From NCBI GenBank assembly GCA_011051425.1, contig DRLF01000069.1, positions 1 to 16,448 of the forward strand: 16,448 nucleotides of DNA. The letters are read 5' to 3'. Source of the DNA: Thiolapillus brandeum (GTDB taxonomy: Bacteria; Pseudomonadota; Gammaproteobacteria; Chromatiales; Chromatiaceae). A model generated the notes under the pieces. It saw only the letters and a list, made by a program, of their open reading frames with translations, was not told where the DNA came from and did not search any database. Shown here piece after piece: positions 1-14,774 of this stretch. Within the stretch, counting starts at the first letter, position 1. Every line of letters begins with the position of its first letter. Both the position numbers and the translations under genes were made by a program.

Positions 1-506
1 AAACGCCCCGCCTCTCCCTGGCCAAGCTCAAGGCATGGACAGGCGCGGAAGAGAGGGAAGCCCACCAGTTGCTGTATCACCTGCAATCCCAATCACTGAT
101 TCACGGCCTGGAGGATCCCCTGACCTGCCCTTCGGGTCCACTTGAAGAAGTTCTTCCGACTCTACTGCCTGCTTTGTCCGGTGAGGGGAAATCTTTGCTC
201 GCCGATGATCAGGGCTTCTACGTGGCATCGTCCGGCTTTCCACATGAATCAGCCGAGGAACTGGCAGCCCTAAGCGCTGACTTGGGCATTTTGCACAAGC
301 GCCATATACACCTATTGGTCAACAATCTGGGTTACCGCGCCAATGCATGGATGCTGGGAGACGCAGCAGGCGATAGCCAGATCGGATTCTGGCCTCTCTA
401 TATAGGCCATCAGCGCTTTTCTCTTGTTGTCGGAGGCATACCTCGTCTCAGTCAACAAGCCTTTACCGAACTGGCTTGGATTCTGGGAGTACGCTATGGA
501 ATCTAG
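1..506 (+). CDS. Roadblock-like protein with N-terminal winged-helix-like segment (5' partial)
   Basis: The reading frame is open from base 3 to the TAG stop at 504-506, so the gene begins upstream of the window; about 167 codons are visible. The N-terminal part (LSLAKLKAWTGAEEREAHQL and onward) looks like a small helical winged-helix unit. From about residue 60 the stretch LLADDQGFYVASSGFPHE resembles the beta-strand core of roadblock/LC7 domains, and AEELAALSADL matches the helix that follows. The end (FTELAWILGVRYGI) looks complete. Roadblock domains dimerise and serve as regulators or scaffolds of small GTPases; MglB is the bacterial example. The next gene, 95 bases downstream, encodes a second roadblock protein, so the two may form a heterodimer (inference). 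A TTG at 69 could be read as a start, but the open frame upstream of it argues for a longer protein. Confidence 0.7.
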   Translation, partial: TPRLSLAKLKAWTGAEEREAHQLLYHLQSQSLIHGLEDPLTCPSGPLEEVLPTLLPALSGEGKSLLADDQGFYVASSGFPHESAEELAALSADLGILHKRHIHLLVNNLGYRANAWMLGDAAGDSQIGFWPLYIGHQRFSLVVGGIPRLSQQAFTELAWILGVRYGI

Positions 507-601
507 GCATCCTCTTATAACCAGACAAAACCTTCAACAGAATGCGCTTTGCGGCGCAAACTGTTTCTCAATACATCTCAACTAATACGGAGTAAAAGAA
601 A

Positions 602-964
602 ATGCGATCTGACATGCTCAATTCCATTTTAAACGAACTCAACAGCACTTCTGCGGATATCGAAGCCTCGGGTGTTATTTCCACAGACGGCCTTATGATG
701 GCATCGCAGTTGCCCGCCGGCCTGGATGAAGATCGCGTTGGTGCGATGAGTGCGGCAATGCTGTCTCTTGGTGACCGAACCGCTTCCGAACTGGGCCGTG
801 GTGAACTTGACCAGGTATTGATCAAAGGAAAAGAGGGTTATGTACTCATGGTATATGCCGGCAGTGAAGCCGTAGTTACCGTCATGGCAAAAGCAAACGC
901 TAAACTCGGGCTGATCTTTCTTGACGTAAAGCGGGCGGCTGAACAGCTCGCCAAGCTGTTGTAA
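602..964 (+). CDS. Roadblock/LC7 domain protein (MglB-like)
   Basis: This 120-residue protein is a single roadblock/LC7 domain. The diagnostic run is GVISTDGLMMASQLPAGLDE (about residues 24-43), followed by DRVGAMSAAMLSLGDRTA and the closing strands VLIKGKEGYVLMVYAG and AVVTVMAK. Length and layout match the free-standing bacterial roadblock family that includes MglB, the GTPase-activating partner of the polarity GTPase MglA. There is no signal peptide or membrane segment, so it is cytoplasmic. The ATG at 602 has a GGAG at 589-592 at good spacing. It lies between a larger roadblock-like protein and a CZB protein on the same strand, which suggests co-transcription. No GTPase gene is visible in the window; if one exists it is upstream or elsewhere. 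The family call is secure, the partner and pathway are inference. Confidence 0.9.
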   Translation: MRSDMLNSILNELNSTSADIEASGVISTDGLMMASQLPAGLDEDRVGAMSAAMLSLGDRTASELGRGELDQVLIKGKEGYVLMVYAGSEAVVTVMAKANAKLGLIFLDVKRAAEQLAKLL

Positions 965-1034
965 TCACTTATAACTAATTGCAAGACAGCTGAAACATGC
1001 TTCGTTTTGTCACTAGCCGTCTTGGGAGGTAATT

Positions 1035-1394
1035 ATGGTTGGCAATGCATTTTTCTTTCAACGTCTCAATGATCATATCCAGTATCTGAGAAAGATTCAG
1101 GGCGCAATTGAAGACAAGAACAATTTTGAAGGTACCGATCCCCATCACTGCAAACTAGGCGAATGGCTGTATGGCACTGGCCCTGAAGAAGCCGCTGCTA
1201 TAAGTAATGAAACGAGAACCATTTTTGATGAACTATTCGAGCCACACGAGCGTTTCCACAATGCCAGTCATCGGGCGCTGGAAAAGCATGCCGCTGGTGA
1301 TCACGAGGGTTGCGAGAAAGAAATGACAGAAATGCACACCCTTTCTGGTGTATTGGTGAACATTCTTATCAAACTGGACGACCTGTCTCATTAG
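1035..1394 (+). CDS. Stand-alone CZB (chemoreceptor zinc-binding) domain protein
   Basis: A 119-residue helical protein that is one CZB domain and nothing else. The expected zinc ligands are visible: His14 in LNDHIQYL, Cys39 in HHCKLGEWLYG, and His71 and His75 in EPHERFHNASH. The CxLGxW signature and the four-residue spacing of the last two histidines match the CZB of chemoreceptors and of the diguanylate cyclase DgcZ, where zinc binding controls activity. In those proteins the domain is fused to an output module; here it is free, so it would have to act on a partner in trans (inference). No signal peptide is present. The start is supported by the strong GGGAGG at 1024-1029, five bases before the ATG. 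The next gene starts 36 bases downstream and encodes a PAS protein, which fits a shared sensing complex. Confidence 0.9.
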   Translation: MVGNAFFFQRLNDHIQYLRKIQGAIEDKNNFEGTDPHHCKLGEWLYGTGPEEAAAISNETRTIFDELFEPHERFHNASHRALEKHAAGDHEGCEKEMTEMHTLSGVLVNILIKLDDLSH

Positions 1395-1430
1395 CATCTA
1401 AACGACAACAGACAGGAGGAGAACCAAACC

Positions 1431-1904
1431 ATGCAAGACATGAGCCCTTCAGACATACAGGGTGATTTCCGTAAAACAACGCTCAATCACTACGATGGCA
1501 GCCAGCGGGTTGTACTGGTCACAGACAACGAAACGCCCTATCCGGAAGGAAAACTGATCGTATCCCGTACGGATACAAACGGCAACATCACCCACTGCAA
1601 CCGCTCTTTTGTAGATATGTCCGGGTACGATGAATCCGAAATCATCGGACAGCCACATGCATTGCTGCGGCACCCGGACATGCCTGCAGCGGCCTTCGAG
1701 GATTTGTGGAAAACAGTACAAAACGGTAACAAATGGCACGGATATGTCAAGAACCTGCGTAAAGACGGAGGTTACTATTGGGTCTACGCGACAGTTATTC
1801 CCAATGTGCGTAACGGAAAAATTGTCGGCTATACCTCGGTACGCCGCAAGCCTTCACGTAAAAAGGTGGAAGAAGCCATTTCAACCTACGCCAACATGAG
1901 TTAA
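1431..1904 (+). CDS. Stand-alone Aer-type PAS domain protein
   Basis: A 157-residue cytoplasmic protein with one PAS domain at about residues 43-143. It closely resembles the N-terminal PAS of the aerotaxis receptor Aer: SRTDTNGNITHCNRSF, then the hallmark LLRHPDMPAAAFEDLW (about 78-93), then KNLRKDGGYYWVYATV and VGYTSVRRKPSR. In Aer this fold binds FAD and reports redox state; the RHPDMP loop (Arg80, His81, Asp83 here) and an Asn in the NRSF position (Asn57) form part of the flavin pocket, so FAD binding is a reasonable inference. The HAMP and methyl-accepting domains of Aer are absent, and the protein ends soon after the PAS with a short helix. A strong AGGAGG at 1414-1419 precedes the ATG; a second in-frame ATG at 1440 is possible. 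Confidence 0.9.
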   Translation: MQDMSPSDIQGDFRKTTLNHYDGSQRVVLVTDNETPYPEGKLIVSRTDTNGNITHCNRSFVDMSGYDESEIIGQPHALLRHPDMPAAAFEDLWKTVQNGNKWHGYVKNLRKDGGYYWVYATVIPNVRNGKIVGYTSVRRKPSRKKVEEAISTYANMS

Positions 1905-1924
1905 CCATCGCTGGAGAAAACCCA

Positions 1925-2668
1925 ATGCCCTATCAATTTACCGTCAGCCCGGATTTTGGACCCGATCAACTCGCCGGATGGCACATTTTCAACACCTGGC
2001 TACAACGTCAGCTGGAAACAGACATCCATTTCGAGACTTTTGACAATTTTGATAGCCAGCGTCAGGCTATTGCCAAAGACCAGGTGGATATCATTTATGC
2101 CAACCCTTACGATGCTTCTTTCCTGGTGCGCGAGAAAGGCTTCGTAGCAGTCGCAACACCTCAGAAGCCGGACGAAACAACCATTGTTGCTCTGGCAGAA
2201 GGTCCGACCCAAAGCATCGAAGAGCTCACACCTGGCTGTAAAATCGCTCAAACAGATGACCCGGATATCAGCATGATGGGTATGATGATGCTGGAACCGG
2301 CAAATCTGGACAGTAACAATACCGTACTCCTACCCCAGAACAGCTATATTCAGGTGGCAAAAGCGCTGATTCAGGGCAAGGCTGATATCGGATTCTTTTT
2401 AACAGATGCCTTCGATTCACTATCGACTCTGATCAAGGGCCAGCTGCGGTCCCTGGTAACCAGTGATATACAAGTGGTTTCCCATGCCTTGCTATTGGGG
2501 CCGGAACTGGCCGCAAGGAAACAGGAACTTAGCCAGAAACTCGCTGACATGAGTAACGATGCCCAAGGTAACAGTTTACTGGAAAGCCTGGGCTTCACTG
2601 CCTGGACTCCGATGGATGAAGAGGAAATGGAGTTTATGATCGACTTGATCGAAGCATTGGCAGCCTAA
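1925..2668 (+). CDS. PhnD-like substrate-binding domain protein without signal peptide
   Basis: A 247-residue protein of the PhnD / phosphate-phosphite-phosphonate binding family. Typical parts are the N-terminal helix AGWHIFNTWLQRQLE (about 17-31), the conserved DIIYANPYDASFLVREKGF (55-73), and QVAKALIQGKADIGFFLTDA in the second lobe. Family members are normally exported lipoproteins feeding an ABC transporter. Here the protein begins directly with MPYQFTVSPDFGPDQ, with no hydrophobic leader or lipobox, and no permease or ATPase gene is nearby. It is therefore probably cytoplasmic and may be a ligand sensor rather than a transport component (inference); the ligand cannot be read from the sequence. 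The start is supported by GGAG at 1913-1916, and the gene follows the PAS gene by 20 bases. The C-terminus is acidic and helical. Confidence 0.85.
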   Translation: MPYQFTVSPDFGPDQLAGWHIFNTWLQRQLETDIHFETFDNFDSQRQAIAKDQVDIIYANPYDASFLVREKGFVAVATPQKPDETTIVALAEGPTQSIEELTPGCKIAQTDDPDISMMGMMMLEPANLDSNNTVLLPQNSYIQVAKALIQGKADIGFFLTDAFDSLSTLIKGQLRSLVTSDIQVVSHALLLGPELAARKQELSQKLADMSNDAQGNSLLESLGFTAWTPMDEEEMEFMIDLIEALAA

Positions 2669-2686
2669 AAAATCGCGCCATACGTC

Positions 2687-2715
2687 CGCCCACTGTCGCT
2701 GTTCGACAATGGGCG
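2687..2715. other. Inverted repeat between the PhnD-like and TPR-like genes
   Basis: Two 12-base arms, 2687-2698 and 2704-2715, pair with a single mismatch around a 5-base loop. There is no T-run directly after the stem on either strand, so it is not a textbook intrinsic terminator. It could be an attenuating or stabilising mRNA hairpin between two genes of the same run. Confidence 0.45.
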
Positions 2716-2746
2716 AATTCTCTCGTCGACATTGCAACATGGAACT

Positions 2747-3475
2747 ATGATGACCAAACTTCTCATCGAGTATAATGGTGATCCAGAAACACATTTCAGC
2801 ACAAATGTGTTTTCGGAACCGGCATTCCTGGTTCCCAGTAGCAGGAAACTACAGCTAGGTGCCCTTGCGCAAGAAAGAACCCTCCATTCCTACCTGGCGC
2901 ACCGCATAACCCGCAACCCACTGGATCTTAAAGCGCACACGCAACGAATCTTTCTTAATCTGGAACAGGAACGTCGGGCAGCCACTTACTCTGCTCTGCT
3001 GGATTTGTTCATCGCGCTGGGGGATCGTGCGCAATCATTGCGAAAGCATTTGCTTCAGCGCCGCAAACCTTTATTGGAACCTGAGCAGCAAAAGTTTTTT
3101 CAGAATTGGCTGGAACACCCCTCTGAAAGTATTCCGGATCATGCACAAAGCGACAGCAGTTTACTCTATAAAATCGAAAAATCTTCTCTGCCGCTTATCG
3201 AAAAAGTTAAAAGCAAGCCTGATTCCAAAGCATGCGAACCTTTGACCGAAGCACGCGAATACTTGGAATATGGCCAGTTTGAACAGGCAATGGATGTATT
3301 GGAAACGGCCACGATAGAAGGAACAGCTACTGATCCCGAACTGCTGAACGAGCTGCTTGCCATATATGAGCATGCCCGGCTATTCGAACGCTATGACGCC
3401 CATACAAAAGCGATGCAACGAGCAGGTCATCACTTATCCAACCATTGGCTATCCTTCAGAAACAACAAACGCTGA
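2747..3475 (+). CDS. Helical TPR/FimV-C-like protein of unknown function
   Basis: The product, 242 residues from the ATG at 2747, is not recognised with certainty. The first 40 residues look loosely structured, and the rest is helical. About residues 166-225 (PLTEAREYLEYGQFEQAMDV, then PELLNELLAIYEHARLFERY) look like one or two TPR hairpins and recall the C-terminal helical domain of FimV-type proteins tied to type IV pilus and polar assembly. A middle block (about 64-125) is also helical and repeat-like. No signal peptide or long hydrophobic segment is visible, so it is likely cytoplasmic. A TTG at 2732 would add five residues; neither start has a strong ribosome-binding site, so the start is uncertain. 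It follows the sensory genes on the same strand, 78 bases after the PhnD-like gene and after a hairpin, and may be an adaptor for them (inference). Confidence 0.65.
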   Translation: MMTKLLIEYNGDPETHFSTNVFSEPAFLVPSSRKLQLGALAQERTLHSYLAHRITRNPLDLKAHTQRIFLNLEQERRAATYSALLDLFIALGDRAQSLRKHLLQRRKPLLEPEQQKFFQNWLEHPSESIPDHAQSDSSLLYKIEKSSLPLIEKVKSKPDSKACEPLTEAREYLEYGQFEQAMDVLETATIEGTATDPELLNELLAIYEHARLFERYDAHTKAMQRAGHHLSNHWLSFRNNKR

Positions 3476-3921: not shown

Positions 3922-4725
3922 ATGAATAGCAATCAATCAATTTTCGGTAAAGGCCTAACAGTTGTATTGCCGGCACTGCTGCTTATGTGTGGCTTTACCT
4001 TGACAGCAGTTTCAGCAAATGAGCTGACGATTGGAGCCGCCATTAACAAGGCCGGCAAACAGCGCATGATAACCCAGCGTGTCCTCAAGGACTACGCGCT
4101 CGCCGGCATGCATATCGAACTCGGTGATCCTGCAGGGGACCTGAAAAACCTGATCGCGCTGTTCGACAGCAGCCTCGCCGATCTGAAACAGTTTTCCACC
4201 AGTGACGAACTGAACAAGAGCCTTGCATCCATCGAAAAGCAATGGACGCCCATCAGGGCCACGCTGCAGGATGCTCCTGACAGAGCCAGGGCAGCCAGCC
4301 TGCAGGAAGAGCTGGACGAGCTTCTGGCGGCCTGCCACAAGAACACCCTTCTGATCGCGAAGAGCGCCAACAACAAGACAGGCGATATCGTCAACCTCGC
4401 CGGCAGACAGCGCATGCTTTCACAGCGTATGGCGGCATTGTACATGCTGAAAGCATGGAAGCTGGACGATCCGAAATTCCGGGAAAAACTGACCGGCGCC
4501 ATGGACGAGTTTTCGGCCGCGCAAAAAACCCTGGAAGCGTCCCCCCTCTCCAGCGATGAAATTCAGGCCCTGCTGGCGAGGGTAAAAAAATCCTTTGCCT
4601 GGTTTGAAATGATGGGCAGGTCATCCTCAAACCGTGTGATCCCCAATCTCATCAACAAATCGGCCAACAGCATCCAGGCCGATATGGACAAGGCTACGGC
4701 ACTGTATGCCCATGCCAATCAATAA
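3922..4725 (+). CDS. Exported protein with two PilJ/NarX-type P-box motifs
   Basis: A 267-residue protein with an N-terminal signal sequence (hydrophobic about residues 11-30, likely cleavage near SA-NE at 32). The mature part holds two copies of the PilJ-type methyl-accepting N-terminal domain (PF13675-like): INKAGKQRMITQRVLKDYAL at 41-60 and VNLAGRQRMLSQRMAALYML at 157-176, each starting a long helix. The same motif is the nitrate/nitrite-binding P-box of NarX/NarQ sensors and occurs in the periplasmic part of the pilus chemoreceptor PilJ. Here there is no second membrane segment, HAMP, kinase or receptor tail, so the protein is probably a free periplasmic four-helix-bundle binding protein. 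The ligand (nitrate, nitrite or other small anion) is inference. AGGTGACAGG just before the ATG supplies the ribosome-binding site. A paralogue follows 31 bases downstream. Confidence 0.85.
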   Translation: MNSNQSIFGKGLTVVLPALLLMCGFTLTAVSANELTIGAAINKAGKQRMITQRVLKDYALAGMHIELGDPAGDLKNLIALFDSSLADLKQFSTSDELNKSLASIEKQWTPIRATLQDAPDRARAASLQEELDELLAACHKNTLLIAKSANNKTGDIVNLAGRQRMLSQRMAALYMLKAWKLDDPKFREKLTGAMDEFSAAQKTLEASPLSSDEIQALLARVKKSFAWFEMMGRSSSNRVIPNLINKSANSIQADMDKATALYAHANQ

Positions 4726-4756
4726 ACCCTTACCTGCAATACATGGAGATAGACTC

Positions 4757-5569
4757 ATGAACCAACTCAAGAAATCCATCCGGATCCTTCTCGTTTGTAC
4801 AGCAGCATTCCTGTTTGCCGGTACTGCTTTTGCCAATGCCGAAAAACCCGCAAGCAGCGGTGACAGCAATCTGGCCAATCTTATCGATATCGCCGGCAAA
4901 CAGCGCATGCTTTCACAGAAAATCGCCAAGGCGTATTTTTTCTACGGCAAAGGCATTCGTCCGGACAAAACCCGCAAACAACTCCTCGACAGCATCCGGG
5001 AATTCGACCGTAATTTCGAGGTCATCAGGAAATCCACAGATAACCCCGGCGTGCAGGATATGCTGGTTTTTATCGAAATGGCGAAGGATGAGCTGGCCCA
5101 GCTGGCCAAGCAGCCCTACAACAAGGAAAACGCCTCACTCGTATTGGACTACAGCGAAACCATGCTGGAAGGCAGCCAGGATATCGTGTCCCGGCTGGAA
5201 GCAGAATCCAAGCTGAAGAAAGAAGCCATCGTCAACCTGGCCGGACGCCAGCGTATGCTCACCCAGCGCATCGCGAAATACTACATCGCCTATCAGGCGG
5301 GCTTCCACGATCACAACACGGTGGATCAGCTGAATACGGCCGTGAAGGAATTCGAGCAGGCCCAGACCGCGCTCATCAAAGCCAAGCGCAATACACCCCA
5401 GATCAAGGCAGAGCTGGAAAAGGTCAAAAAACTGTGGCACGTGGTAGCCAAGTTCTACAAGGACGTGGAAAGAGGTGGCCTCCCCGTCATCGTGCTGGCC
5501 ACCACCGATAACATCATGGCTACCATGAACCAGGTTACTCACCAGTATGTGGAACTGTTGGGCTCCTGA
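4757..5569 (+). CDS. Exported paralogue with two PilJ/NarX-type P-box motifs
   Basis: A 270-residue protein with a clear signal peptide (MNQLKKSIRI, a hydrophobic core to about residue 25, cleavage near AFA-NA at 26-27). As in the preceding gene there are two P-box units: IDIAGKQRMLSQKIAKAY at 43-60 and VNLAGRQRMLTQRIAKYY at 159-176. The helices between them are charged and amphipathic. Only the architecture and motifs are shared with its neighbour, so the duplication that made the pair appears old. No membrane anchor or output domain is present. The ATG at 4757 is chosen because GGAG at 4745-4748 is well spaced and the signal peptide starts right there; an in-frame ATG at 4706 overlaps the end of the previous gene and would bury the leader. 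The two products may form a heteromer (inference). Confidence 0.85.
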   Translation: MNQLKKSIRILLVCTAAFLFAGTAFANAEKPASSGDSNLANLIDIAGKQRMLSQKIAKAYFFYGKGIRPDKTRKQLLDSIREFDRNFEVIRKSTDNPGVQDMLVFIEMAKDELAQLAKQPYNKENASLVLDYSETMLEGSQDIVSRLEAESKLKKEAIVNLAGRQRMLTQRIAKYYIAYQAGFHDHNTVDQLNTAVKEFEQAQTALIKAKRNTPQIKAELEKVKKLWHVVAKFYKDVERGGLPVIVLATTDNIMATMNQVTHQYVELLGS

Positions 5570-5608: not shown

Positions 5609-6295
5609 ATGAATTACACAATTATCAGCGCACTCGTGTTCGGTGTCATGCAGATACACGGACACGCCACCTTATCAACAGCCACCGCCGGCGAAATCGA
5701 CCTGGTGGGCAAGCACCTGGTAGCTGACCGGGATATGGCTGTGGAATGGACCAGAGATGCCAATCTCGTCAAGACCCTGTGCAGCAATGACAGCCCCTTG
5801 TGGAAAAGCTTCGACCCGGCTTCCGTCAAACAGGGTACCGGCAGAAGCGCCGCAGAAATCTGTGCCCAGAACGGACTCATGAACTGGTACGAGGCCAAGG
5901 CCTGGATCGGCGTGCTCAACAAGCACGCCTACCTCGGGCACAGTGACTGGCGGTTGCCCCGGATACAACAGAAGGACAGCAGTTGCTCCCTGCACATTCA
6001 GGCCGATCAGGCCGGTAACACCGTCAGTCTGGGTCACGGTTGCCTCAACAGCGAACCCGGACACCTTTTCCATGCTTCCCTGGACAATCCGGTCTATGAG
6101 GGTTCGGCATGTCAGGACAATTGTCTGACCAACCACGGTCCTTTCAGCAACCTGTCAGGCAACATGTACTGGACAGATACCGAAATAGCTTTCGATACTT
6201 CCCTGGTCGGTGTATTCGATCCCAGCAACGACTGGCAGGATGCTGAAAAGAAAACCTCCGATCTGCTGCAGGTCTGGCCCGTACACGCGTTGTAA
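5609..6295 (+). CDS. DUF1566 / Lcl C-terminal domain protein
   Basis: A 228-residue protein of the DUF1566 (Lcl_C) family. The signature appears as MNWYEAKAWIGVLNKHAYLG (91-110) directly followed by HSDWRLPRI, then YWTDTEI near residue 187, and the typical closing VWPV at 222-225. Family members are usually secreted or surface proteins with a C-type-lectin-like fold; the name-giving Legionella Lcl is an adhesin that binds glycans. The N-terminus (MNYTIISALVFGVMQIHGHA) is moderately hydrophobic and may be a weak signal peptide. At least seven cysteines suggest disulfides and an extracytoplasmic location. The GGAG at 5597-5600 sets the start. The gene follows the second P-box protein by 39 bases on the same strand and probably shares its operon, so the three products may act together in the periplasm (inference). 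Confidence 0.8.
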   Translation: MNYTIISALVFGVMQIHGHATLSTATAGEIDLVGKHLVADRDMAVEWTRDANLVKTLCSNDSPLWKSFDPASVKQGTGRSAAEICAQNGLMNWYEAKAWIGVLNKHAYLGHSDWRLPRIQQKDSSCSLHIQADQAGNTVSLGHGCLNSEPGHLFHASLDNPVYEGSACQDNCLTNHGPFSNLSGNMYWTDTEIAFDTSLVGVFDPSNDWQDAEKKTSDLLQVWPVHAL

Positions 6296-12971: not shown

Positions 12972-14774
12972 CTACCGCGCCAGCTTGAGATCACCGTTGA
13001 TCCTATCATGATAGCTGATCACCGGTTGGCCGCTGGCATCCAGGGACAGGGAGGTGTATTCGCCCACCCAGGCCGCACTGTCCACCGTGGTGAGGATGAC
13101 GCTGGTGCAGGTGGCATTGTTGCAGCGCGCCAGCTTGAGATCACTGTGGCTGACATCCCTATAGCTGATCACCGGATTACCGATGGCATCCAACACCAGG
13201 GAGGTATACCAGCCCACATCACCTGCACTGTGCACCGCGGTGAGGGTGGCACTGGCGCAGTAGGCGTCGTTGCAGTGCGCCAGCTTGAGATCACCGTTGT
13301 CGGCATCATAATAGCTGATCACCGGATTACCGCTGGCATCCAGGGCCAGGGAGGTGTAAAGGCCCACATCGCCCGCACTGTCCACCGTTGTGAGGATGAC
13401 GCCAGTGCAGGTGGCATTGTTGCAGTGCGCCAGCTTGAGATCAAGGTTGGTGACATCATAATAGCTGATCACCGGGTAGCCGCTGGCATCCAGGGCCAGG
13501 GAGGTGTACCGGCCCACATCGCCCATACTGTCCACCGGGGTGAGAATGGCGCTGGTGCAGTTGGCATCGTTACAGTGCGCCAGCTTGAGATCACCGTGGG
13601 TCCTGTCGTAATAGCTGATCACCGGATGACCGATGGCATCCAGGGCCAGGGCAGTAAATTCGCCCACATTGCCCGTGCTGTCCACCGTGGTGACAGCAGC
13701 GGTGGCGCAGTTGGCATCGTTGCAGTGCGCCAGCTTGGGATCATCGTGGGTCCTGTCATAATAGCTGATCACCGGGTAGCCGCTGGCATCCAAAGCCAGA
13801 GCGGTGTGCCGGCCCACATCGCCCGCACTGTCCACCGGGGTGAGGGTGGCGCTGGTACAGGTGGCATCGTTGCAGTGCGCCAGCTTGAGATCATTATTGG
13901 TGGCATCATAATAGCTGATCACCGGGTGGCCGCTGGCATCCAGGGCCAGGGCAGTAAATTCGCCCACATTGCGCGCACTGTCCACCGTTACGGTGTCGAG
14001 CCGGCGCGGCACCAGCACGTGCGCGCCCTGGCACTGCACGCTGCCGTCGGCGTTGATGGTGATCATGTGATAGCCGGTGGGACAACTGCCGGTAACACGG
14101 CGTTGCACCTGGTTGGGTTTGATGTGGGCTGCGCCGATGGCGCCCGCCTGGATCATCGACCCGGTGATGGCGTGGTTGGCCACGCTGACGGTACCGCTGG
14201 TGGTGATCGGCCCGCCGGTGAGACCGGCGCCGGTGTCGATCCGGTTGATGCCGCCGCCCACGTCATCGGGCTCGCAGGTCACGTTGCCGCTGGCATCGAT
14301 GGCGCGGATGCTGGAACCGGCGGCGCAGCTGCCCGTGCCCCCGAGCACCTTGTCCAGCGCCACGGTATTGGCCGCCGAGGTCTGCACGCTGTTGTCGGGG
14401 AAACGGAATCCGGACTTGCTGTAGATCTCTCCGGCGGCGGTCAAATCCCCCGGAGCGTTGAGCGCGGCGCGATCAGCCAACAGCTCATCGTTCATGCGCA
14501 CTTCCGCCCACAGGGGCAGCGGCAGGTTGGTGTCGATGATGCCTTGCAGGCGCGAAGCTTCAGCTTCCCCTGCCTCCAGCTGCCACTGGCTTTGCGACAA
14601 GAGATGTGTTTCCAGCGCCTCGCCTCCTTCGGCCTGCCGGTAGAGGGTGACCACCACCTGGGCGGGAGCGGTAGTGGGCGCCTCCGGCAGCTTTGTGGCG
14701 AGCCGGTACTCGCGCGCGCCGGCTGCGGCAGCCAGGGTACATAACAAAACAAGGATGGGTGTAAAGCGAATCAT
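12972..14774 (-). CDS. Secreted protein of seven 50-residue repeats, probable beta-propeller
   Basis: A 600-residue protein with a signal peptide ([20 protein letters not shown]). Residues about 21-115 form an unrecognised N-terminal domain, followed by [14 protein letters not shown], a motif seen in surface and tail-fibre-like proteins, and a Gly/Ala-rich stretch with [20 protein letters not shown]. Residues 270-600 are 50-residue repeats: six complete and a seventh of 31 residues. Each has the pattern [21 protein letters not shown], then [12 protein letters not shown], then LTTVDSAGD. The missing last strand of repeat 7 is supplied by [11 protein letters not shown] just before repeat 1, as in the strand-swap closure of a seven-bladed propeller. 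The paired cysteines (CNxxxC) suggest a disulfide in each full blade. Location is extracellular or cell surface; the ligand is unknown. AGGAGGAG six bases before the ATG sets the start. Confidence 0.85.
12975..13967 (-). repeat. 150-base tandem coding repeats
   Basis: Six full 150-base units and one partial unit lie head to tail and encode the propeller blades. A landmark such as CAGCTTGAGATCA (+ strand) recurs at 150-base steps from 12981. The units are very similar at DNA level, including silent positions, which points to recent expansion or gene conversion. Confidence 0.95.

Follow-up and report, generated by a model that had tools for sequence, protein, structure and literature searches.

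The MglA-type small guanosine triphosphatases (GTPases) of Group 3 were catalogued in 2014, and the available text of that study reports no experimental function for them (PMC4316618). According to the same text, they are almost confined to beta- and gammaproteobacteria, display 'DAR' at the G5 motif, often lack the G4 lysine, and are encoded by genes adjacent to those of one or two MglB homologues and of a protein with a receiver-like N-terminus and a winged-helix C-terminus. Here we analyze a stretch of 16,448 nucleotides from Thiolapillus brandeum (Chromatiaceae), hereafter the window, which is the whole of contig 69 (DRLF01000069.1) of its assembly (GCA_011051425.1; 2.74 Mb, 479 contigs, 84% complete). 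Its first 3.5 kb carry six same-strand genes, called here A to F (Table 1). We propose that this row probably forms the 3' portion of a G-protein operon of the Group 3 MglA type, in which exchangeable free cytoplasmic sensors would make up the input arm and act via a roadblock platform on the GTPase.

The gene row and its upstream partners

The six genes are separated by gaps of 95, 70, 36, 20 and 63 bases. The original prediction, made from the sequence letters alone, described them as two roadblock-type proteins (A, B), a free CZB domain (C), a free Aer-type PAS (D), a leaderless PhnD-like protein (E) and a TPR/FimV-like protein (F), and the gene calls and Pfam searches show this order, strand and set of domains to be right in substance. 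The matches of B (Robl_LC7), C (CZB), D (PAS) and E (Phosphonate-bd) all lie far over the Pfam cut-offs, and the profile of B also matches CvnB5 (3leq) and MglB (6h5b). The roadblock of A scores under the cut-off, F gives a mere TPR hint, and the FimV_core and FimV_Cterm models have no match in F at E 0.1. Homologues of F are the first gene of the operon in most other loci.

The row was also said to have no visible output domain. This is correct for the window itself, but the output seems to be missing because the contig begins inside gene A. Four sister genomes from this genus show the A-F row extending upstream into a small GTPase gene and a gene for a protein of about 400 residues with a receiver and a predicted winged helix (receiver/wH); in G003 the A-F row is divided between two contigs. 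The MglA/Ras-like GTPase that the original prediction advised looking for is thus directly upstream in these four genomes, and it is also found near B in most of the related loci described below. The presence of both upstream genes in T. brandeum itself is inferred from the sister genomes, as its own assembly does not contain them.

In an alignment of GTPases from sister and related genomes, the G5 motif reads D-A-R in 30 of 30 sequences and the G4 lysine is absent in 24 of 30. The GTPase profile matches MglA (3t12, E 8.4e-7), while its partner carries a receiver domain and, according to the published prediction (PMC4316618), a winged helix. A and B provide the adjacent MglB homologues, and the Sedimenticola sister of the window belongs to the Gammaproteobacteria. 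The other genera among the related loci are presumably gammaproteobacterial too. On these sequence features, the core corresponds to Group 3 MglA as published.

Some relatives of these two proteins have unusual architectures. A GTPase of Group 3 type and a Ser/Thr protein kinase domain make up one protein at L024:1596-3089 (identified by eye) and L122:6344-7846 (tested with Pfam), with a FIST protein downstream. At L130:10865-13501 (minus strand) the receiver/wH homologue is an open reading frame (ORF) of 878 residues that also matches GAF and HisKA_2, so that a kinase and the receiver may be joined in one protein in that lineage.

Distribution and exchange of the sensor genes

A scan of the genome collection with gene B returned at least 450 relatives, of which the best 80 named loci were analyzed, so that this sample leans towards similar systems. 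A and the receiver/wH gene are each found in 72 of the 80 loci, the GTPase in 71, the TPR homologue in 68, PAS in 57, PhnD in 56 and CZB in 7. When the 64 loci away from contig ends are considered, GTPase and both roadblocks are present in 60, the receiver/wH gene in 60, and PAS together with PhnD in 47, which bears out the expectation that the genes should occur together in other genomes. The genes are usually arranged as TPR - receiver/wH - GTPase - A - B - PAS - PhnD, and this arrangement is seen in Methylococcales, Thiothrix and Cellvibrionaceae, among other records. The six-gene row of the original prediction is kept, CZB included, in Sedimenticola-type loci and in no others of the 80; the common set is the seven-gene one.

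A less biased control was made with 369 genomes of the class of the window, searched with B (E <= 1e-15) and PhnD (E <= 1e-20); in GTDB, this class, Gammaproteobacteria, also includes the betaproteobacteria. B was found in 52 genomes and this PhnD in 19, all of them among the 52, whereas 33 of the 52 have no such PhnD. In 16 of the 19, the best PhnD is on the contig of B and less than 1 kb from it. Among the relatives of T. brandeum that were searched, 10 of 55 have gene B, its own genome included. One genome of the same genus, G009, has the receiver/wH, GTPase, A and B genes and a second B, without C, D or E; its tandem duplication of B (L026:11579-12988) comes with a gene of 79-80 amino acids lacking a Pfam match. 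Roadblock proteins 71-75% identical to B also occur under Acidimicrobiales/Microthrixaceae labels (P0155, P0181 and P0182), which suggests lateral transfer or misbinned contigs. In five Methylomonas loci (L054, L057, L058, L061 and L085), a class-I adenylate cyclase gene lies two genes past PhnD (the domain was checked in L054; the others have a gene of the same size).

Some members of the set, or the entire set, are absent from certain lineages, as would be expected if these genes were unrelated neighbours without joint function. This explanation is nevertheless highly improbable, since the same-strand order and the short gaps are kept in Sedimenticola, Methylococcales, Thiothrix and Cellvibrionaceae, and the core is found with CZB in Thiodiazotropha.

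The main argument for sensors that work with the roadblock/GTPase core is that unrelated folds replace one another at one address. Five free sensor domains were scored within 2.5 kb of B and on its strand in 112 loci, a table that includes two duplicates (L031=L021 and L032=L020), one locus cut in two (L027/L028) and 20 loci picked for the absence of PhnD beside that copy of B. Among the loci with a GTPase in reach, PAS+PhnD is the most frequent set (48), followed by no sensor (26), CZB+PAS+PhnD (5), CZB (4), globin (4), globin+PAS+PhnD (3), FIST (2), globin+CZB (2), PAS alone (1) and PhnD alone (1). The loci without a GTPase in reach have a globin (7), none of the five (5), PAS+PhnD (3) or CZB+PAS+PhnD (1). 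All four globins that were tested proved to be protoglobins (PF11563), and the FIST protein of L024 has both FIST domains. Pairs of globin and B without a nearby GTPase coexist with a full operon elsewhere in the same record in Methylomonas fluvii (L073 and L054) and Methylobacter marinus (L084 and L046).

A tree of 91 loci was reconstructed from those with GTPase, A and B together, leaving out L031 and L032; the reconstruction was quick and includes several long branches. It requires at least 22 changes of sensor set, a number that is probably somewhat high because a contig end is near in rows scored 'none' (L027, L083, L104 and L105) or 'PAS' (L078), against 39.4 when the labels are shuffled. 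Sensor sets have therefore been partly inherited and partly swapped.

The residues of the sensors are informative about what they may detect. In the PAS of gene D, the positions aligned to the flavin adenine dinucleotide (FAD) contacts H53, R57, W70, N85 and R115 of Aer are invariant in 21 of 21 sequences, whereas the position of Aer M69 is occupied by L in 18 and by M, V and A in one each (contacts as given in the available text of PMC9668731). The protein has 157 amino acids and PAS is its sole domain over the cut-off. Its third-best solved relative is 3ewk, listed as 'Sensor protein', which we take to be MmoS, a redox sensor of methanotrophs. In the CZB of gene C, H14, C39, H71 and H75 as well as the motif C-x-(L/F)-G-x-W-(Y/L) are conserved in 10 of 10 sequences, in line with the 3His/1Cys site and motif by which the family is defined in the available text of PMC8262984; their spacing and conservation predict that H14, H71 and H75 are zinc ligands. 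The conserved residues fit redox sensing by the PAS and zinc or oxidant sensing by CZB, as the original prediction had it. Gene E has profile matches to PtxB and ArrX, which place it in the PhnD family, and its sequence has no leader, an export signal being expected of a PhnD-type binding protein. Its C-terminal residues E236, F237, I239 and D240 are invariant in 26 of 26 sequences, and a role in partner binding is possible.

The observed gene content, order and conservation, together with the cofactor residues and the folds of A and the receiver protein, lead us to infer physical contacts, a direction of effect, ligands and a transcriptional output. A (winged helix and roadblock) and B (roadblock) would together serve the small GTPase, whose gene is directly upstream, as an MglB-like platform. 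The FAD-PAS would report the state of electron transport or redox, CZB zinc or oxidant, and the PhnD-like protein some small ligand; in other lineages, the protoglobin would respond to oxygen, and FIST proteins would be further sensors. Each of them would bind the A/B platform or another sensor and thereby switch the GTPase from one nucleotide state (GDP or GTP) to the other, and the GTP form would be read by the neighbouring receiver/wH protein, most simply as altered transcription.

Several observations weigh against this proposal. Alignment searches with the GTPase and with the receiver/wH protein, which found matches in 4 of 4 sister genomes, found none in the assembly of T. brandeum. The receiver is without the acidic pair that such domains usually have. 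Of the 14 other genomes searched in this genus, five carry gene B. At 26 of the 112 loci (some cut by contig ends), the GTPase is present while no sensor of the five types lies within 2.5 kb, and sensors are therefore not obligatory. The sensor sets cluster on the tree, with many loci sharing one inheritance. In three of the 19 PhnD genomes the best PhnD is on another contig and weaker (185-202 bits, 291-295 codons), and two of the 16 copies beside B are broken (split in G107, interrupted by a stop in G349). The stretch R-A-S-T-S-S of PtxB, presumably its oxyanion-binding loop, aligns to D-D-P-D-V in gene E, so the loop is not conserved and phosphonate is an unlikely ligand. Finally, no fusion of a sensor to a roadblock was found among the best 120 of 5536 (PAS+B), 317 (CZB+B) and 386 (globin+B) matches to concatenated queries, as judged on query coverage and listed Pfam domains with nine sequences read; the length range of the CZB+B query began at about 131 amino acids, which places free CZB proteins outside that listing.

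This absence of fusions among the best matches would be expected if the sensors were independent of the roadblocks, as separate regulators (for instance adaptors of histidine kinases or chemoreceptors) sharing an operon and a physiological theme. Some loci do carry kinases. A hybrid histidine kinase that contains a PhnD and three PAS stretches of its own is encoded upstream in Sedimenticola together with a LuxR-type response regulator (L019:6382-11288), in L123 the gene after B encodes a GAF-histidine kinase, and the GAF and HisKA_2 matches of the L130 protein were mentioned above; in addition, CZB-only proteins are reported elsewhere (available text of PMC8262984). Nevertheless, unrelated sensor folds adjoin this roadblock gene in different lineages, globin and B form pairs even without a GTPase, PhnD is rarely far from B, and the common gene row has no kinase (the neighbours beyond the row were not scanned for kinases in general). 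We thus consider independent sensors unlikely and favor the input arm. The original prediction of a complex acting through roadblock proteins on a GTPase stands insofar as the genes co-occur with the GTPase, while the fusion screen lends it no support.

Other joined proteins were seen in these searches, and two of them speak for the proposal. The ORF P0177 joins A to B, and in P0136 a receiver is fused to B on a single 1.5-kb contig, which could be an assembly chimera. The receiver-B protein P0210 was rejected as a true fusion, being joined at a conserved stretch and probably chimeric. P0003 is a protein of 332 residues with two tandem Aer-type PAS and no output domain. At L129:3968-6476, an AAA ATPase domain is joined to a B-type roadblock, and the next gene encodes a metallo-beta-lactamase-fold protein of the ODP family, which we take to be a family of di-iron oxygen sensors.

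Genes around the operon

Downstream of gene F and a gap of 446 bases, the window continues with two PilJ genes and an Lcl_C gene (Table 1), and then groEL and groES on the opposite strand. The two PilJ proteins (3922-5569), apparently secreted and without an output domain, are kept beside the operon in Sedimenticola, and in L026 the pair still adjoins it although on the opposite strand.

Table 1 Position and content of the genes in the six-gene row and of its downstream neighbours
Feature	Position	Strand	Description	Best domain or structure match	Same position in other loci
Gene A	3..506	+	5' end cut by contig start; helical, probably winged-helix-like N-terminal domain and degenerate roadblock; second MglB-type subunit		
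Gene B	602..964	+	Single-domain roadblock/LC7 (MglB/CvnB-like)	Robl_LC7 E 4.5e-15	
Gene C	1035..1394	+	Free CZB zinc-binding domain	CZB E 9.1e-14	
Gene D	1431..1904	+	Free Aer-type PAS, predicted FAD binder	Aer PAS 8dik E 7e-36	
Gene E	1925..2668	+	Leaderless PhnD-like ligand-binding protein	Phosphonate-bd E 1.4e-37	
Gene F	2732..3475	+	Weak TPR protein, start codon uncertain	TPR_14 E 0.92	
First PilJ gene	3922..4725	+	PilJ N-terminal domain protein, two stretches; N-terminus looks secreted; no output domain	PilJ PF13675 E 7.9e-21	L019-L021 and L028 (genus-level neighbour)
Second PilJ gene	4706..5569	+	PilJ N-terminal domain protein, two stretches	PilJ E 2.6e-24	L019-L021
Lcl_C gene	5609..6295	+	Lcl_C domain protein	Lcl_C E 3.5e-10	L020, L021, L026 (genus-level neighbour)

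Such neighbours bear on another explanation, already raised in the original prediction as polarity or pili: the same system could have a spatial output, in which the GTPase, like MglA of Myxococcus, determines cell polarity or the activity of type IV pili and the sensors tune surface motility to redox, oxygen and metals. Besides the PilJ-domain proteins of Sedimenticola, genes of FimV/HubP type lie directly 3' of the operon in six of 110 loci (L080, L089, L092, L097, L109 and L115). When the FimV models were applied to the downstream genes of L080, L092 and L115, FimV_Cterm was over the cut-off in all three and FimV_core in L080 only. L116 has pilB, a pilC-type gene and a presumed pilD downstream, and a gene for a methyl-accepting chemotaxis protein (MCP) follows B in L127. 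This support is scattered. All six FimV loci belong to a single clade of seven rows in the tree and may represent one event, matches of PilB/C/D/T type were found in just two of the 110 loci searched (L025 at about 7-9 kb), and the conserved partner of the GTPase carries a receiver with its predicted winged helix. A spatial output is therefore possible but appears rather less probable than the transcriptional reading of the GTPase state proposed above.

Further along the window, a protein of 600 residues is encoded at 12972-14774 on the minus strand, with a leader-like N-terminus and repeats of about 45 residues (of the form ...LKLAHCN). Its only domain match is a weak one to BNR, and the complementary strand is likewise open there, over 618 codons.

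Comparison with known systems

The core resembles the Group 3 MglA/MglB systems (PMC4316618) in its adjacent genes for an MglA that has D-A-R at G5 and in most cases lacks the G4 lysine, for one or two MglB, and for a protein with a receiver and, by the published prediction, a winged helix. PAS, PhnD, CZB, globin, FIST and TPR are not named as parts of Group 3 in the available text of that study, where 'PAS' has no occurrence. Neither a published function of Group 3 MglA nor an account of these sensor genes was found in the mostly open-access literature searched. The core is thus already known, and the sensor arm is apparently undescribed.

The actinobacterial conservons (CvnA-D) are likewise operons that take their input from a sensor and encode a small GTPase, an MglB-type roadblock and one more conserved protein. 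Their sensor is a histidine kinase, whereas here the sensors are separate small soluble proteins and the common row is without a kinase; kinases occur at single loci only (L019, L123 and L130), so that a CvnA-type kinase is not a conserved member. CvnC is presumably DUF742, and at E 0.1 the proteins of L019 (A, GTPase and receiver/wH) gave no DUF742-type Pfam match. The MglA/MglB/RomR module of Myxococcus also combines a GTPase, a roadblock and a receiver-domain protein, and we know of no free sensors in it. Its GTPase belongs to Group 1, contrary to the Group 3 protein here, and the genes of its response regulators do not adjoin mglA, according to the available text of PMC4316618.

The coupling of a haem globin sensor to a roadblock has a precedent in HGbRL of Methylacidiphilum, another methanotroph genus (PMC4476040), and this too speaks for the proposal. 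As far as the available text of that paper goes, HGbRL is a fusion with another type of globin and no Group 3 operon is mentioned; here the protoglobins are free. The other sensors are similarly detached from the contexts of their relatives. Gene D shares the PAS-FAD family with Aer but lacks HAMP and MCP, gene C shares the CZB family with DgcZ and TlpD but lacks GGDEF, and gene E belongs to the family of PhnD, PtxB and ArrX but lacks a signal peptide and a transporter.

These sensor genes hint at what Group 3 MglA may listen to, namely the redox state (by FAD), oxygen (by haem), zinc or oxidant, and a small ligand. The hosts are methane- and sulfur-oxidizers, whose life depends on redox position, and named isolates that carry the system, such as Methylotuvimicrobium buryatense (locus L066 in strain 5G), Methylomonas and Thiothrix, open it to testing. 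If the proposed input arm is real, it would give prokaryotic Ras-like switches a further way of receiving signals, in addition to the Frz/RomR route and to the histidine kinases of the conservons. One may go further and suggest, tentatively and with somewhat less than even confidence, a general plug-in class of bacterial G-proteins in which unrelated single-domain soluble sensors would dock interchangeably on a roadblock A/B and Ras-like GTPase core. In that case, neither kinases nor second messengers would be needed for one switch to integrate information on redox, oxygen, metals and metabolites. In the eukaryotic Ragulator-Rag system, a roadblock scaffold acts on small GTPases under metabolic signals; its likeness to A, B and the GTPase is an analogy only, but a plug-in class would be a working analogue of Ragulator-Rag nutrient sensing.

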